From a virus: a DNA stretch of 22,219 nucleotides. The notes under the pieces were generated by a model. It made no database searches and was not told the DNA's origin. It saw nothing but the letters and a program-made list of their open reading frames with translations. A program made the position numbers and the translations under genes. The DNA is taken from positions 1 through 22,219 of IMG/VR virus record IMGVR_UViG_3300042455_000873; one strand, 5' to 3'. Positions 3,420 to 21,742 of the stretch are shown here, piece after piece. Position 1 is the stretch's first letter. Every line of letters begins with the position of its first letter.

Positions 3420-3567
3420 GTAGTTCCCATGCTCCAATTATGGCAGCAAGGGTGTAAAGAATACCGAAGGTTAGCCCCAAGCCACCTAGAACGCTTTTAG
3501 TTTGCGTAGAGAGGTTTATCAGTATGCCGGCGGTGATGGCTGGGACTAACCAACGGAGATTACTCAA
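3400..3567 (-). CDS. Small membrane protein, 55 residues (TTG start)
   Basis: A TTG at 3567 overlaps the TGA of the SSB-like gene by four bases (TTGA), with AGGGAG about eleven bases upstream. The frame gives MSNLRWLVPAITAGILINLS, then a second hydrophobic segment (about residues 27-47, LGGLGLTFGILYTLAAIIGAW), ending at a TAG at 3400. Two membrane helices are predicted. It overlaps the start of rusA by 20 bases. Without it, 144 bases would be non-coding in a very compact region. Function unknown. Confidence 0.6.
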   Translation of the reverse strand: MSNLRWLVPAITAGILINLSTQTKSVLGGLGLTFGILYTLAAIIGAWELHGRGKL

Positions 3568-3896
3568 AAGGGAAGTGACTCCCTGTGTGTTGGCTCAAAG
3601 ATTTCCTTGATTGCCGATAGTGGCTCTGCTGGAACTACCTTTGGGTTGTTGATGCTGACCTTGATTGACTGCTTGGCTTCGCCCTCTTTGTTAGTCCAGT
3701 TGTCTATCTCTGATGAGTAGAGTCCCTCGACCTGAAGGGTGTCACCGACCTCGAAGGTTGTTGGCTGTGCAAGCCAGACTGTGTAACGCTTGTTGATTGT
3801 TTCGCCAGCCTTGCTTTGGAATGATTCTACTAGCTCGATGCCTTTGCCCTCGTAAAATACTCGGCTAATTGCACCCTTTACTTTGATTATTGCCAT
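3564..3896 (-). CDS. SSB-like single-stranded DNA-binding protein
   Basis: Start placed at ATG 3896, with GGAAACAAGAG upstream; the frame extends to 3938 but lacks a better start. The 110-residue product has an OB-fold-like strand pattern (IIKVKGAISRVFYEG, then RYTVWLAQPTTFEVGDTLQVEG, then QSIKVSINNPKVV) and ends in ESLPF. That ending resembles the acidic-LPF tip by which bacterial SSB recruits partner proteins. It sits between the DnaB and RusA genes, where a replication SSB would be expected. The assignment rests on pattern and context, not on clear identity to a named SSB. Confidence 0.65.
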   Translation of the reverse strand: MAIIKVKGAISRVFYEGKGIELVESFQSKAGETINKRYTVWLAQPTTFEVGDTLQVEGLYSSEIDNWTNKEGEAKQSIKVSINNPKVVPAEPLSAIKEIFEPTHRESLPF

Positions 3897-3927
3897 CTCT
3901 TGTTTCCTTATCTCTTGTTGTTTTACT

Positions 3928-4203
3928 CTAGTGGTCACCTATGACATGGTTGGGGTTGGTGCAGTCAAGGTGTCCACAAGACCTAGTGCCTGGCAAGACT
4001 GGCTTGCCGTCAAATAGTGGGATGGTGAGCGTAAGCTTGTCAAACTCTCCCTGCCAAGGGATACACTTCTCGGATCCATACTTGATGACGAGAGCTTTAT
4101 GCATCCGACAGGATTGGCACTTGAGGTCTTTACGCTTACGCTTTTGAGTGTTGACCTTCCAAGTAGAGCCACACCGACAGCACAAAGCAACATTGTCATC
4201 CAC
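3928..4203 (-). CDS. Zinc-ribbon / HNH-like small protein
   Basis: A 91-residue protein from a GTG at 4203, nine bases after the DnaB stop. It carries two CxxC pairs (C8/C11 and C29/C32) that make a zinc ribbon, with a basic linker (TQKRKRKDLK). A second part has C47 and the motif RSCGHLDCTNPNHV (75-87), which is the His/Cys-rich half of many phage HNH endonucleases. An active nuclease is not certain, because no complete HNH triad is visible. Its place inside the replication genes is common for phage HNH proteins. Confidence 0.6.
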   Translation of the reverse strand: MDDNVALCCRCGSTWKVNTQKRKRKDLKCQSCRMHKALVIKYGSEKCIPWQGEFDKLTLTIPLFDGKPVLPGTRSCGHLDCTNPNHVIGDH

Positions 4204-4212
4204 GCCATAATC

Positions 4213-5442
4213 TTAGCCGACCACTCTGGAAAGATAACCCTCAAACCTCAGAGCGACTTCACCGAGTCCACCATGTCGGTTCTTAGCTACCTTCATTATC
4301 ATCTGACTCTTTTGCCACTCAAACTGATCCTCGTCAACCTGCCGTCTGTGAAGCAAGATAACAGCATCGGCATCCTGCTCGATACCACCTGAATCTCTAA
4401 GGTCAGCCATGTCAGGTTCAGAATCTCTGCGCTGCTCAGGGCCTCGGTTGAGCTGGGCTAAAGCTATGACCGGCACATTCAAATCTCTAGCTAGGTTCTT
4501 GAGTCCGATTGAGATGTCAGTAATCATTTCATAACGCTTTCGACCCTTCTCGGTGTCTTGAATCAAACCGAGGTAGTCAACAACTATGGCTTGGAGTCCG
4601 TTGTTTCCTTTTACGCTGTTTGCTAAGGCTCGTATCTGCATTAGGTTTTGACCTGACTTGTCATGGATAGCAAGCTGGTGAGATTGAATGTCTTGTCTGA
4701 CTTTGGCAATCTTTACCCAGTCATGATCCCTAAGAGTTCCCTTCTCGATGTTGCCGATGTAAACCTCAGCTTCCATGCTGATGATTCGGTTGTAGAGTTC
4801 ACTTTTGCCCATCTCTAGGCTGTGAAAAGATACAGGGCCAGTCTTAGATAGTTCCCAAGCAATCTGCAACCCAACGATTGTCTTACCAACACCAGGTCTT
4901 GCACCGATGATGTATAAAGCACCTGGTCGGAATCCTGCAATGACTTCGTTGAGTAGAGGCCAAGGGCTTTCAGGGTAATGCTTTGGCTTGTCTATCTCAT
5001 CAAGGTAAGGGATTAGCTCATCGGCAACATAGCTTGGCTTGACTGCCGAGTTACGATCTATGAGGTTATCAATTTCTTTTTTAGCTGTGTCAAAGACTGT
5101 GGCTAAGTCCTCGTGCTGAGCCTTGCTGTGAATCATTGTTCCGGCAACAGCTAACCTGCGTCTTGTAGCTTCCTCGATTACCTTGCTGGCGTAGAACTTG
5201 ACAGAGGCAGCAGTCGGGGTAGCTGTGATTACATCGTGTAGGTAGCTCGCTAGTTTTGGCAGAGCTGCACCCACAGTCATAACATCTATCGGTTGGCGAT
5301 TGGCCTTCATCTCCAGAATGGTTTTGTAGATACGCTCATTCTGTATGTCATCAAAGTCGCTGGGTGCGAGTGTCAGTTCCTCAAGTGCCTTGCCGTTGGT
5401 CAGCAGGATTGATCCGATTACCGATTGCTCAAACTGTGTCAT
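4213..5442 (-). CDS. dnaB: Replicative DNA helicase, DnaB family
   Basis: A 409-residue protein of near-standard length for a phage DnaB. The N-terminal domain (about 1-100, FEQSVIGSILLTNGKA) binds primase and loader. The RecA-type ATPase domain has Walker A GARPGVGKT (180-188), a catalytic-Glu region SFHSLEMGK (205-213), Walker B IVVDYLGLI (286-294), a sensor ALAQLNRGPEQR (327-338) and the DnaB4 motif SGGIEQDADAVILLHR. It unwinds DNA at the fork as a ring hexamer. The ATG at 5442 overlaps the stop of the initiator gene (ATGA), so the two are translationally coupled, like lambda O and P or phage initiator-helicase pairs. Confidence 0.95.
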   Translation of the reverse strand: MTQFEQSVIGSILLTNGKALEELTLAPSDFDDIQNERIYKTILEMKANRQPIDVMTVGAALPKLASYLHDVITATPTAASVKFYASKVIEEATRRRLAVAGTMIHSKAQHEDLATVFDTAKKEIDNLIDRNSAVKPSYVADELIPYLDEIDKPKHYPESPWPLLNEVIAGFRPGALYIIGARPGVGKTIVGLQIAWELSKTGPVSFHSLEMGKSELYNRIISMEAEVYIGNIEKGTLRDHDWVKIAKVRQDIQSHQLAIHDKSGQNLMQIRALANSVKGNNGLQAIVVDYLGLIQDTEKGRKRYEMITDISIGLKNLARDLNVPVIALAQLNRGPEQRRDSEPDMADLRDSGGIEQDADAVILLHRRQVDEDQFEWQKSQMIMKVAKNRHGGLGEVALRFEGYLSRVVG

Positions 5443-6101
5443 TTCACTCTCCCGATAAATAGCTTAGGCAATGGTTTTGCTTCAGCGACTTCAACACTCT
5501 CATAGAGTCCCTTGTTTAGCCAAGAGGCTGGGTAGGGAATGTATTTTAGCTCTGGCAACTTTCCCTCAGCGTAGGCTTTGGTCAGCTTCAATAACTCATC
5601 AGCGGTTTTGCTTTTGATTGCTTTGTTCCAGGCTTTGAGTGCATCACCTTTGGCTATCTTTTTAGGGTAAAGATTCCAGAACTTTTCAAAGTCATCATCA
5701 GCCTGTTTCTTTGATGGTTCTTTGATGGTTAATATTATGTTTTGCGTGCCAACAGGTGTCACCCCTGATTTACCTGAGCTGTCACCCCTGCTTACCCAGT
5801 CTGTCACCCCTGATGTCGAATCTGTCACCCCTGACTTGATTGTCAGCCAGTAAAGATTCGTCTTGTATTGACCTCTGATAGGTGCGTTTTGTAACTCAAC
5901 TTTCAGCTCACCTAGTTCTACAAGTTCCTGAATGTCACGCTTGACCGAACGCTCTGAGGCGTTGGCATACCTGGCTAGTGTGCTTATCGAAGGCCAAGCA
6001 CCTTGATCTCCAAGATGATTAGCAATTCCGAGCAGCACTAGCTTTGCCCTGCCATTTGCTTTGGATTGGTTTAGAACGAGTGACACAGCTTCGATGCTCA
6101 T
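5439..6101 (-). CDS. Replication initiator, winged-helix protein carrying the origin
   Basis: A 220-residue protein. Residues about 1-88 form a winged-helix domain: RAKLVLLGIANHLGDQGAWP, then the recognition region ISTLARYANASERSVKRDIQ. A flexible, glycine- and serine-rich linker (89-120) is encoded by the iterons. The C-terminal domain (138-203: FEKFWNLYPKKIAKGDALKAW, cut here to its core, then IPYPASWLNKG) is the one found on many phage and plasmid replication proteins. It is expected to bind the iterons and recruit the helicase encoded just downstream. The ATG at 6101 overlaps the stop of the 65-residue gene. The layout matches lambda O: DNA-binding domain, origin in the gene middle, helicase-contact domain. 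Confidence 0.8.
   Translation of the reverse strand: MSIEAVSLVLNQSKANGRAKLVLLGIANHLGDQGAWPSISTLARYANASERSVKRDIQELVELGELKVELQNAPIRGQYKTNLYWLTIKSGVTDSTSGVTDWVSRGDSSGKSGVTPVGTQNIILTIKEPSKKQADDDFEKFWNLYPKKIAKGDALKAWNKAIKSKTADELLKLTKAYAEGKLPELKYIPYPASWLNKGLYESVEVAEAKPLPKLFIGRVK
5707..5743. other. Tandem 11-base repeat and AT-rich stretch, candidate unwinding element
   Basis: Next to the iterons, the plus strand has TTCTTTGATGG twice in direct tandem (5707-5717 and 5718-5728), then TTAATATTATGTTTT (5729-5743). An AT-rich segment flanking iterons is where duplex opening occurs in lambda-type origins. It is also protein-coding (part of the initiator linker). Confidence 0.55.
5757..5834. repeat. Four iterons inside the initiator gene (replication origin)
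   Basis: The plus-strand word TGTCACCCCTG occurs at 5757-5767, 5780-5790, 5802-5812 and 5823-5833, three copies followed by A. Start-to-start distances are 23, 22 and 21 bases, about two helical turns. Three copies are read in one frame as SGVT, but the copy at 5780 is read in another frame as SRGDS, so the conserved thing is the DNA word, not the peptide. This is the expected form of initiator binding sites. Confidence 0.8.
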
Positions 6102-6295: not shown

Positions 6296-6416
6296 TAAAT
6301 GTGCCTCCTAAATTAGGTTGGCACACTACACTTAGTAATGATGCCAACAGCCTTATTGTTGGTATCCACGCCGTCTAGGGGTTCCGATCTCTAGGCGGCA
6401 TTTCTTATTCTGTTAT
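6296..6416 (-). promoter_or_regulatory. Structured leader of the replication operon (possible attenuator)
   Basis: In transcript sense, segment 1 CCAACA (6362-6357) can pair with segment 2 TGTTGG (6349-6344). Segment 2 read as GTTGGCA (6348-6342) can instead pair perfectly with segment 3 TGCCAAC (6323-6317). The two hairpins exclude each other. Segment 3 lies eight bases before the AGGAGG at 6309-6304, and the dyad CCTAATTTAGG (6317-6307) overlaps that ribosome site. A further hairpin (GCCG-CTAG arms, 6370-6399) lies upstream with one A-C mismatch on this strand. Confidence 0.45.
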
Positions 6417-8963: not shown

Positions 8964-9233
8964 ATGACATTACGCCAGATTGAACGCAAATATATTGAGC
9001 TGCAAGAAGCAATAAGAAACAATGATGGCGTTGATTGTAGCCAAGTCCCAGAGGTCTTTTTCCCAGAGGATGAGCATGACCCAGCAACTCGAAAGTCAAT
9101 GGTGCAGGTAGCAAAGGAAGTCTGCGCTGATTGCTCTGTAAGACTGAGGTGCTTTGACTATGCGTTATCGGCAGGGATGCAAGGCATCTGGGGTGGAACT
9201 ACTGCTGAGGAACGCCAGAAGCTAAGAGCTTAG
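8964..9233 (+). CDS. whiB: WhiB-like iron-sulfur transcription regulator
   Basis: An 89-residue protein with the full Wbl signature: C25, then C54-x2-C57 and C63 to hold a [4Fe-4S] cluster, and GIWGG (74-78), the turn that contacts the primary sigma factor. After it only EERQKLRA remains, so the basic DNA-contact tail of many host Wbl proteins is short or missing. Wbl proteins bind sigma factor region 4 and change promoter choice; some phage members act as dominant-negative regulators of host genes. It is the only plus-strand gene, with its own promoter. Its stop overlaps the stop of the convergent holin gene by four bases. Confidence 0.93.
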   Translation: MTLRQIERKYIELQEAIRNNDGVDCSQVPEVFFPEDEHDPATRKSMVQVAKEVCADCSVRLRCFDYALSAGMQGIWGGTTAEERQKLRA

Positions 9234-19374: not shown

Positions 19375-20025
19375 TTACTCCCAGCCGTTCTTGCGCCTTA
19401 TTTCTAGTGACCAATCACCAGCGGTGTAGTCGTTACTGTCCATCTTAGACTGATAGTGTTTCTCGTTTCTGGAATAGGTCATAGCGTTCTTGTCCATGTA
19501 ACCAGCCTTGATAGTCGAGCTGTTGTCATGTGTGACCTCGATGTCTAAGAGCCTAATGTTGACACCGACAAACTCAGCCCTGCGAGCATAGTCATTGTCC
19601 TCAAAGTAGGCAGGGAATAGTGACTCATCAAACAGCCCGATGTCGTTGACTGCCTCATCTCCCAAAGCAAAGGCTTGCCAGTGAGGTGCTGAGCCTGTCA
19701 GGGTTATCTCATCCCTGCGAGCCTGTGAGAGTTGCTCTAAAGCACCAGGCTTGAACTCTACATCGTTAGACACTACAAACCAGCGGTGAGCATAAGGGAA
19801 AGACTTGATGCCTAAGTTCCATGATCCTGATACGCCGAGATTAGCTGGCATCGGTAAGTGTGTGACCTTCTTAAAGTTATCGCTTAGGTCAAGGATTAGC
19901 TTTGGCTGGTGGCTTGCACCATTGTCAATTATGAGCAGGTGTTCGACTGGGACATCTACGCTGTCAAGCATCCTTTGGAGCAGGTCATACCGATTCAGCA
20001 CCGGCACAATCAGGTTCTCAAGCAT
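19375..20025 (-). CDS. Glycosyltransferase family 2 (GT-A fold)
   Basis: Start chosen at ATG 20025, which overlaps the methyltransferase stop by eight bases and follows GAAAAGAAAG; the open frame goes on to 20106 but only inside the upstream gene. The 216-residue product begins with LIVPVLNRYDLLQRMLDS and HLLIIDNGA, the GT2 nucleotide-binding start, then NLGVSGSWNLG (62-72). SNDVEF (86-91) stands at the usual metal-binding DxD position, FPAYFEDNDYARRA (137-150) holds the likely catalytic Asp/Glu, and VTHDNSST (164-171) the C-terminal His. It would transfer a sugar, probably to a virion protein or glycan; the acceptor is unknown. Confidence 0.88.
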   Translation of the reverse strand: MLENLIVPVLNRYDLLQRMLDSVDVPVEHLLIIDNGASHQPKLILDLSDNFKKVTHLPMPANLGVSGSWNLGIKSFPYAHRWFVVSNDVEFKPGALEQLSQARRDEITLTGSAPHWQAFALGDEAVNDIGLFDESLFPAYFEDNDYARRAEFVGVNIRLLDIEVTHDNSSTIKAGYMDKNAMTYSRNEKHYQSKMDSNDYTAGDWSLEIRRKNGWE

Positions 20026-20551
20026 CAGCTTTCTTTTCACCATAGAAGTAAAGGTCACAAGAATCAGCGTTGTAGTCAAAGTAGTAGCTGTCAAACATCT
20101 CATCAAGATTGAACTCAGCTCTAAAGTCCTGCTCAGTTAGGTTTCGGTAGTAGTCCCAGCCGAGTGTCAGCGGTGATGAGCCAGGGTCTGACTTTGTAGT
20201 GCCATGCTCAGCTCTGCCCTCTGAGGCACAGGTCATCATCACATACTTCTTGCTCATACGCCACATATTGCGAAAGGTAGCAACCCACTCAGGGTTATGC
20301 TCAAAGCACTCAGCAGATACAGCGACATCAAAGCTGTTGTCGGGGTAGTCAAGGTTCTCACCATTACAGACAACATCTACATCTCTGCCCTCGGCTACAT
20401 CAGCACCAATGTATCTAGTCGAGTCAAAGAAATCTCGGACTGTGCCGTTGATGTTTAGACTGCCAACCTCTAGGACTTCAACACCTGTAAAGGCTTCGGG
20501 TTTTTTATTCTTGACACCTTGAAAGAAATCCCTTTGCTGACTGTGTGCCAT
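20018..20551 (-). CDS. Class I SAM-dependent methyltransferase
   Basis: A 177-residue protein starting right after the GT4 stop (TAA then ATG). The Rossmann-type SAM fold is visible: motif I VEVLEVGSLNINGT (24-37), acidic residue in YIGADVAEG (47-55), NGENLDYPDNSFDVAVSAEC (63-82) and FEHNPEWVATFRNMWRMSK (83-101). The type 11 methyltransferase pattern suits a small molecule or sugar as substrate more than DNA, since no target-recognition domain is present. Placed between two glycosyltransferases, it most likely methylates the added sugar; this is inference. Confidence 0.85.
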   Translation of the reverse strand: MAHSQQRDFFQGVKNKKPEAFTGVEVLEVGSLNINGTVRDFFDSTRYIGADVAEGRDVDVVCNGENLDYPDNSFDVAVSAECFEHNPEWVATFRNMWRMSKKYVMMTCASEGRAEHGTTKSDPGSSPLTLGWDYYRNLTEQDFRAEFNLDEMFDSYYFDYNADSCDLYFYGEKKADA

Positions 20552-21742
20552 TTACTTGAGCAACTTCCTCAGTATCGGCATCCAGTTATTCTCCCAAACC
20601 TTTTCAACATCAAACTTGCTGGCAAAGTCTATGGCTACCTGTGATGGGCCACGCTCGGCCTTGTACGCTTCCTCAAGAGCATTGACCAAGCTAGAGATGC
20701 TCGGTGTCATCCACCATGCGTCTTGCCCTGCATCCCAAGTTAGCTGACCATCTGTAAGCCATGAGTCCTCGCTAATTAGGTCAGGGGTTGCTGCCCAGTT
20801 AGAGCCAATGACTCTAGTGCCACAAGCCTGAGCTTCAAGACTAGGAACTCCAAAGCCCTCACCCAAGCTAGGTGCTAGTAAAACATCCATGCGTGAGTAG
20901 AGTGCGGCTAGGTCTTTTTGAGCTAGTCCAAAGCGGTAGTCATTCGGGTTAGGAAAGATTACCTGATCCTTTCTAATTCCTGTTGAGTTGAGGATGTTTA
21001 GCAAGTTCCAACCACCAGCTTGACCTACTGCATCTGTGTGTAGATACAGCACAGCGTCAGGGTGAGCCTTAGCAAACAAGCTGAAAGCAAGGATGAGTTC
21101 CCCATAGGCTTTGCGGTGAACTAGCCCTGATGCCTTGTTAGCGGCAACAACTCCGACAACAAAATTATCTGGCTCTAGTCCCATGTAGGCGTTTATCTCA
21201 TGTCTGCCTATCTTGCTGGTTGGTTTGTAAACCTTAGTGTCTATTGCGTGAGGTGCGTACTCACAGTCAATACCCTTTTCAGTTAGCTGTCTGACTCCAT
21301 GAGGTGACATAGCGATTGGGGTTACATTGTCTTTGCGTAGGAACTTCTCTACCTTTGGGGGAAGTGTTACATGGTCTAGCGGTGTCCAAGCACCGATTGG
21401 GAAGTCATCGTATCCGTTAGCAAGCATCACCCAAACATCGTAAAGGCTGATAAACAGATTGGGTTTATCTTTTCCGGCAATAAAGGATTTGTGATCTACT
21501 GGTGCAGAGTCATTTGAGTAGAGGTCTATTCCTCTGGGGTAATGTGGGACATCGCCAAAAGGTGTTTTGATTGTGCTTGGGATTCCCTCTAGTCCGTAAT
21601 TGGACAACATAGCAACATCAAGACCTGAACGCTTCAATCGGTCAACAAGCATTGTGGCCTGTTGTCCGTATCCGGTTGGTGCGTTGTAGCTATTAGACCA
21701 GACGCTTACTGCGCCGTTTAGTTTCTCTTTATTCGTAGGCAT
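20552..21742 (-). CDS. Glycosyltransferase family 4 (GT-B fold)
   Basis: A 396-residue protein. The N-terminal domain has the acceptor-side glycine turn SYNAPTGYGQQATML (18-32). The C-terminal domain has ANKASGLVHRKAYGELILAF (201-220), YLHTDAVGQAGG, VIFPNPNDYRFGL, and the donor-site signature LGEGFGVPSLEAQACGTRVI (293-312) with the E-x7-E pair E295 and E303. It moves a sugar from a nucleotide donor with retention. It is the first gene of the cassette behind a likely leaderless promoter (TATTAT six bases before the ATG). Acceptor unknown; capsid or tail glycosylation is plausible from its location. Confidence 0.9.
   Translation of the reverse strand: MPTNKEKLNGAVSVWSNSYNAPTGYGQQATMLVDRLKRSGLDVAMLSNYGLEGIPSTIKTPFGDVPHYPRGIDLYSNDSAPVDHKSFIAGKDKPNLFISLYDVWVMLANGYDDFPIGAWTPLDHVTLPPKVEKFLRKDNVTPIAMSPHGVRQLTEKGIDCEYAPHAIDTKVYKPTSKIGRHEINAYMGLEPDNFVVGVVAANKASGLVHRKAYGELILAFSLFAKAHPDAVLYLHTDAVGQAGGWNLLNILNSTGIRKDQVIFPNPNDYRFGLAQKDLAALYSRMDVLLAPSLGEGFGVPSLEAQACGTRVIGSNWAATPDLISEDSWLTDGQLTWDAGQDAWWMTPSISSLVNALEEAYKAERGPSQVAIDFASKFDVEKVWENNWMPILRKLLK

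Follow-up and report, generated by a model that had tools for sequence, protein, structure and literature searches.

Four iterons inside the linker codons of a phage initiator gene as a putative replication origin

Initiator locus

The window, i.e., the whole stretch of DNA analysed here, is a virus record of 22,219 bases and represents a fragment. On its minus strand, an initiator gene runs into a helicase gene, and the features of this locus are as follows.

4213..5442, (-): replicative helicase DnaB (PF03796, 2.1e-73), with a 4-nt overlap with the initiator stop
5439..6101, (-): replication initiator gene, 220 aa (PF13730, 40.4 bits; phrog_270, 8.1e-34; AF2 model with winged helix, disordered linker and helical C-terminal domain)
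5838..6101, (-): predicted winged-helix DNA-binding domain, residues 1-88 (pLDDT; generic wHTH matches in PDB)
5913..5954, (-): predicted recognition helix, residues 50-63, in which R51, S52, R55 and D56 track the word (AF2 helix H50-63; covariation ranks)
5823..5833, (-): iteron 1, CAGGGGTGACA, GVT phase (sequence)
5802..5812, (-): iteron 2, CAGGGGTGACA, GVT phase (sequence)
5780..5790, (-): iteron 3, CAGGGGTGACA, shifted phase read RGD (sequence)
5757..5767, (-): iteron 4, CAGGGGTGACA, GVT phase (sequence)
5718..5828, (-): predicted disordered linker, residues 92-128 (pLDDT under 50), its codons spanning the iteron array and the beginning of the second element
5720..5745, unstranded: AT-rich stretch, candidate unwinding region (sequence; 63% AT in the 75 nt 3′ of the array)
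5705..5730, (-): second element, comprising AACC 5727-5730, GAACC 5716-5720 and GAAAC 5705-5709 in 11-nt steps (sequence; direct repeat; family enrichment)
5484..5711, (-): helical C-terminal domain, residues 131-206 (AF2; phrog_9327/9474 matches; another domain in some relatives)

Among Pfam profiles, the initiator matches PF13730 (HTH_36) at 40.4 bits, above the curated cut-off of 25, and in a PHROG search it matches phrog_270 (replication initiation protein) significantly (E = 8.1e-34). The winged helix and the adjoining helicase gene named in the initial annotation are thus both borne out by profile matches. The AF2 model, built from 39 sequences, exhibits a mean pLDDT of 80-97 for ten-residue blocks over residues 1-90, and its low-confidence linker (residues 92-128, pLDDT < 50) coincides with the iteron array. 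Structure matches in the PDB are generic winged helices; 4pt7 ("Structure of initiator") and a DnaD N-terminal domain are among them, neither being above background. The 4pt7 match (Z 7.6, rmsd 4.2, 89 aligned) is tied with generic winged helices, and 4pt7 itself is a protein which we take to be of the RepA_N type. Foldseek returned no match for the initiator at E ≤ 0.001, and a PDB sequence search with the initiator profile gave generic regulators with a best E of 0.029. Neither PF04492 (Phage_rep_O), which lambda O and P22 gp18 do match, nor PF06970 (RepA_N), which pUSA03 RepA does match, appears among the Pfam matches of the initiator at E ≤ 0.1.

The genome had been called actinophage-like, which agrees with the presence of a WhiB gene and with distant initiator relatives in Arthrobacter phages. 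The WhiB-family gene (8964-9233, plus strand) runs opposite to the phage genes around it, and it suggests an actinobacterial host. A gene at 3564-3938 (minus strand) encodes a 124-aa protein with no Pfam or PHROG match at E ≤ 0.1; our impression, and only that, is of a small protein like an OB-fold single-strand binding protein. Upstream of the initiator genes, the gap holds a 13-pair hairpin and, after it, a T-rich tail (6370-6409, plus strand), with no Rfam match. Terminator-like matches in the window are not above shuffles (5 vs. 5.1), and scans of the window with Rfam (gathering threshold) and for tRNAs found nothing.

Iteron array in the window

The window contains exactly four copies of the 11-mer TGTCACCCCTG, at 5757, 5780, 5802 and 5823 (steps of 23, 22 and 21), and all of them lie within the initiator gene (5439-6101, minus strand). 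Read on the coding strand, the word CAGGGGTGACA recurs at steps of 21, 22 and 23 nt in phases 1, 1, 2 and 1, counted from the C. The positions, the spacing of 21-23 bases and the exact identity of the four copies are therefore as first described; the copy at 5780 is indeed read in another phase, giving SRGDS where the remaining three give SGVT, with an identical DNA word. The spacers between the iterons differ mutually, while the words do not. With up to two mismatches, TGTCACCCCTG is matched 15 times across the window, whereas shuffles average 6.5 and 0 of 100 reach 15. A chance repeat is ruled out by these window shuffles together with the synonymous-codon shuffles of the family clusters described below. 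In six searched records with GGGGTGACA arrays, at most one further copy of GGGGTGACA lies outside the array.

Two flanking features of the initial annotation were recovered as well, namely a tandem 11-base repeat (5704-5714 and 5715-5725, 91% identity) and an AT-rich run beside the array, where the 75 nt on the 3′ side are 63% AT vs. 54% for the gene. The locus thus shows two of the features that mark an in-gene iteron origin, namely near-identical repeats beyond what the peptide needs and an adjoining AT-rich region. Cumulative GC skew, which had been proposed as a further check, lends no support: its minimum falls near 9 kb in the 22-kb fragment, not at 5.8 kb, and there is no extremum at the array.

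Close relatives and synonymous sites

Close relatives were taken as the best 80 of 142 IMG/VR loci. Of these 80, 57 have four copies of the full 11-mer with phases 1,1,2,1, and one further locus (L053) departs from this pattern by a single flanking base in copy 2. Three words in the pattern 1,2,1 are found in 6/80, and in two more (L076 and L077) three words are kept and copy 1 is GGAGTGACA, still read PGVT. A sister clade of 12 loci carries five copies each in a single phase, mixed within arrays (47 GAGGTGACA and 13 GGGGTGACA in all). L071 carries GGGGTGTCA four times, and in L057 the reading frame is broken. A scan of a genome collection with the window protein yielded no relative, and tblastn of phages with the initiator matched 212 records, five of which were compared; lambda, P22 and TP901-1 were added by accession.

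Synonymous sites were analysed in 45 unique close-relative genes that are at least 82.6% identical over 138 aa. Four-fold sites are variable at 0/11 positions inside the words vs. 35/43 elsewhere (Fisher p = 7.9e-7). Split by region, variable sites number 34/35 upstream of the array, 1/6 between words in the array and 0/2 on its 3′ side. Since the between-word sites are nearly invariant (1/6 vs. 34/35 upstream), the whole array, and not the word alone, is constrained at the DNA level. The alignment of relatives that the initial annotation had called for came out in its favour: copy number, spacing and phase of the DNA word are retained, whereas nearby peptide positions vary.

In three more distant relatives, all copies of the word differ alike. 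L071 (four copies of TCAGGGGTGTCA) reads SGVS, SGVS, VRGVR and SGVS, the third copy being out of frame; L126 has three copies of GGGGGTTCA, read SGGS, RGFK and SGGS; L192 has four copies of GGGGAGACA, read GET, GET, RGDN and GET. In these three loci, unlike in the sister clade, all copies share the word difference irrespective of frame. Such alike changes may have spread by gene conversion, and selection for a common reader would be the simplest reason that they hold. Together with the invariant synonymous sites, these alike changes across frames uphold the proposal of selection on the DNA word.

Family-wide array test

The family set started from 284 unique initiator genes, excluding the lambda, P22, TP901-1 and pUSA03 loci. 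Genes shorter than 170 aa or with a profile score below 30 were dropped from the cluster test, leaving 274 genes in 41 clusters at 70% winged-helix identity. The other scans that supplied loci kept the best 80 of 92 and the best 80 of at least 534, 515, 208 and 203 loci, respectively; because each scan keeps its best 80, the locus sample is not random, and several of the counts given here comprise related sequences. The array score was the best repeated 9-mer, allowing one mismatch on both strands, with 200 synonymous-codon shuffles per gene.

The mean array score was 3.92 for the linker, 2.06 for the wHTH region and 1.97 for the C-terminal region. Linker repeats exceeded the shuffles in 32/41 clusters at p ≤ 0.05, with 27 of them at the floor of 1/201; by this test, no significant array was found in the other nine (L083, L519, L086, L231, L121, L105, L400, L100 and L402). 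The 32 significant clusters use three phases in 10 cases, two in 16 and one in 6. Their same-orientation spacings fall at 20-24 nt in 58 of 85 cases, with spacing modulo 3 distributed as 35/25/25. Individual examples include Kuleana, with five copies of GGGGTGCAC in phases 0,0,1,2,0, and EBPR podovirus 2, with six copies of AAACCCGGA in all phases; a search of viral sequences with the EBPR protein gave no relative.

For the initiators of L072-L080, the match to the window initiator is confined to residues 1-128 to 1-142. These initiators and that of L189 keep the winged helix and the iterons but have another C-terminal domain; in the three scanned (L072, L073 and L189), the C-terminal parts match PHROGs 3992 and 1408 and not the 9327/9474 matched by the window. 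This pattern suggests a modular exchange just 3′ of the putative origin, in which the reader and its site would travel together.

Stop-phase copies

The reading frame imposes a further constraint, since GGGGTGA in the third phase would give TGA. Over distinct arrays, the phases of GGGGTGA are 42/16/0, and those of the stop-free GGGGCGA are 14/20/13. All seven stop-phase copies of GGGGTG carry C or T at the critical base. Six array types hold both TGA-bearing and stop-phase copies (L195/L254, L089, L088, L203, L091 and L275). In each of them, the critical base is the only difference between the stop-phase copy and one of the TGA-bearing copies beside it in the array; related arrays are not independent. 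In L195/L254 (with T) and L089 (with C), no GGGGTG copy other than the stop-phase one lacks the A, whereas the remaining four types also have such an A-less copy in another phase. The absence of a stop in an open frame is trivial; that the rest of the word is kept there is not. Avoidance of the stop phase may also be the reason that the window has steps of 21, 22 and 23 rather than a constant 22.

Word and recognition helix

Covariation between word and reader was analysed with gene pairs at matched identity, ranking 86 wHTH columns by how well they predict word difference; overall identity was controlled, and the tree was not. The first set comprised 145 genes with a G-tract word in at least three copies, and a larger set, which contains the first, comprised 151/264 such genes; eight genes with an enteric-type helix were dropped from each. 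R51, S52, R55, N47 and D56 were the top five of the 86 columns, and the larger, overlapping set gave the same five. Four of these lie inside the predicted recognition helix H50-63, and N47 lies in the preceding turn. In the larger set, columns 50-63 gave a Mann–Whitney p of 0.02; without the CG clade, p was 0.006, and R18, outside the helix, displaced S52 from the first five. When L071 and L126 were left out, R51 dropped from first to ninth place among the 86 columns, with N47, R55, D56 and S52 holding ranks 1-4. Within the GGGGCG clade alone, there was no signal (Mann–Whitney p = 0.63).

Specific pairings are also seen. RS..RD occurs in 83/86 genes with GGGGTGACA, of the two SS..RD genes one carries GGGGTGTCA and the other GGGGGTTCA, and all 23 genes with GGGGCG words have RT, which is also found in four genes with other words. 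NK goes with GGGGTGAAC (three genes) or GGGGTGCAC (two genes), and RR..QI with GGGGTGAAA (four genes). The helix leaves some word positions unexplained, since arrays of GAGGTGACA and GGGGAGACA share RS..RD with those of GGGGTGACA. Word identity tracks residues of the predicted recognition helix with exceptions, a statistical link in which word switches are few and phylogeny is partly controlled.

Second element 3′ of the iterons

All 5-mers in the 75 nt 3′ of the iterons were scanned in 41 cluster representatives against 100 synonymous shuffles. AACCA (51 observed vs. 15.5 in shuffles) and GAACC (64 vs. 27.5) ranked at the top, and GAGCC was avoided (1 vs. 26). GAACC occurs 64 times in 3,075 nt on the 3′ side of the iterons, vs. 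8 times in 9,840 nt of the wHTH region and 9 times in 8,995 nt of the C-terminal region. An AACC pair 10-13 nt apart is present in 29/41 representatives (shuffle mean 9.9, maximum 17) and absent from 12/41. The commonest AACC steps are 12 nt (20/54) and 11 nt (12/54), from 35 representatives. The AACC copies use the phases 58/16/13, the main one being read EP; because most copies share one phase, peptide selection may add to this second element. In 31/35 cluster representatives, the 75 nt 3′ of the iterons are richer in AT than their own gene.

AGAACC-type tandems with steps of 11-12 nt are found in initiators of actinophages and of proteobacterial (prophage) origin. We propose that the AGAACC element may be an unwinding or loading element.

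Comparison with known systems

In-gene iterons are already known from lambda, P22, phage L, SPP1 and pSK41. Lambda, P22 and phage L carry different iterons inside each initiator gene, which is O in lambda and gene 18 in P22 and L (PMC8022706; PMC7466680). The initial annotation had likened the window to the lambda O/ori scheme, a comparison that holds for the layout. The iterons lie mid-gene with AT-rich DNA beside them in both, and the annotated iterons of lambda likewise fall in three reading phases (0,2,2,1). However, the initiator of the window belongs to PF13730, with no match to PF04492. The lambda iterons are described as imperfect inverted repeats of 18-19 bp (PMC7466680), in contrast to the direct, asymmetric words of the window. 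Lambda O lacks the tandem AACC that the window has on the 3′ side of its iterons, and the neighbouring gene is P in lambda and DnaB here. In P22, a DnaB-like helicase gene follows the initiator, as in the window. The same word search gave no clear array in TP901-1 rep.

The plasmid pSK41 has four Rep boxes placed centrally in rep and bound by the N-terminal winged helix; a pSK41-type initiator with the linker deleted in frame still acts in trans, and the C-terminal domain contacts primase (PMC5703833). The same review reports that a hybrid initiator of pPR9 with a pfam13730 N-terminal domain supports replication and names pUSA03 among its like (PMC5703833). The staphylococcal pUSA03 repA scanned here (RepA_N; L421 101-1060) matches PF06970 instead of pfam13730 and has four copies of GTCAAAAGGACAC at 23-nt steps in phases 2,1,0,2. 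Unlike the initiator of the window, those of the pSK41 type are PF06970 proteins of Bacillota plasmids. As for SPP1, oriL lies within gene 38, where gp38 binds direct repeats next to an AT-rich unwinding element, with gp40 as a DnaB-family helicase (PMC6316719). Compared by this description, SPP1 shares with the window the in-gene direct repeats, the AT-rich element and the DnaB-family helicase and differs by a separate loader, gp39, and a second origin, oriR (PMC6316719). In literature searches covering open-licence papers, no description of the frame and stop-codon evidence, the helix–word covariation or the GAACC element was found, the GAACC motif itself not having been a query.

Proposed origin and alternative explanations

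Based on these comparisons, the array is very probably a phage replication origin, with four iterons in the linker codons of the initiator that would be read by its own winged helix, an AT-rich region for opening, and recruitment of DnaB. The evidence, all of it comparative, demonstrates the anatomy of the array, a selection that acts on the DNA word independently of frame, and a statistical association of the word with the recognition helix. In the proposed mechanism, the four iterons, two helical turns apart and embedded in the linker codons, would constitute the origin, and the winged helix of the initiator would bind the words, as the covariation suggests. By analogy to lambda, SPP1 and pSK41, the adjoining AT-rich region with its tandem AACC/GAACC/GAAAC would open, and the C-terminal domain may help bring the phage DnaB from the next-door gene. 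The linker peptide, predicted to be disordered, would largely be what the DNA words spell.

A repetitive SGVT/EVT linker under protein-level selection could in principle have produced identical DNA as a by-product, and single-phase clades with 21-nt steps do exist, e.g., the sister clade with GAGGTGACA (EVT), as do the six single-phase cases among the 32 significant clusters. However, 26 of these 32 carry the same word in two or three phases, the peptide varies (RGD, GVT, QGC) over words that are unchanged or altered at a single base, and the predicted disorder of the linker argues against peptide-level selection. The synonymous invariance of the words in close relatives counters this reading too, and with the multi-phase words it leads us to reject a peptide-driven repeat for most clusters; for the array of the window, we consider it very improbable. 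Neutral recent tandem duplication, with copies kept alike by slippage or gene conversion, would fit L277, in which 22-nt units are repeated together with their spacers, and gene conversion could be included in the alike changes of all copies. The spacers of the window differ while its words are identical, the words are invariant across the 45 genes down to 82.6% aa identity, and clusters with different words retain the 20-24 nt geometry, so that such a duplication is the least credible account of the array.

A role as an operator or promoter element, by which the initiator or another regulator would control transcription and not replication, is also unlikely, if somewhat less so. It draws on a promoter-like match (10/12) composed of a -35 GTGACA of the last iteron and a -10 CATAAT. 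However, CATAAT is kept in only 25/45 relatives, promoter-like matches between 4000 and 9500 number 8 vs. 6.0 expected, and upstream of the initiator gene the word is absent between 5944 and 10399, even with two mismatches. The words may nevertheless have a dual role, in replication and in transcription control.

With the array read as a replication origin, the window is a further case of an in-gene iteron origin, one with unusually clear comparative evidence and a testable word–helix code. How an initiator and its origin can change specificity together without loss of function is hard to study, as paired variants are few. Here, the protein reader and the DNA word sit in one gene, there are at least 41 clusters of natural pairs, and the coding frame provides a built-in control for telling selection on the DNA from selection on the peptide. 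The PF13730 family may thus form a natural library of initiator–origin pairs, in which the embedded word and the helix residues R51/S52/R55/D56 shift jointly within the double constraint set by the genetic code, such that a recognition code could be deduced from sequence alone. It would further share, between actinophages and proteobacterial prophages, an AGAACC element (11-12 nt steps) that may serve, whatever the iteron word, in unwinding or helicase loading throughout the family. We judge the chances of this broader reading to be evenly balanced. If the shared GAACC element is functional, it would count among the conserved components of phage origins. The array also points to a simple way of recognising replication origins in contigs from uncultured phages.

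Elsewhere in the window, two glycosyltransferase genes and one methyltransferase gene stand in a row at 19375-21742 on the minus strand.
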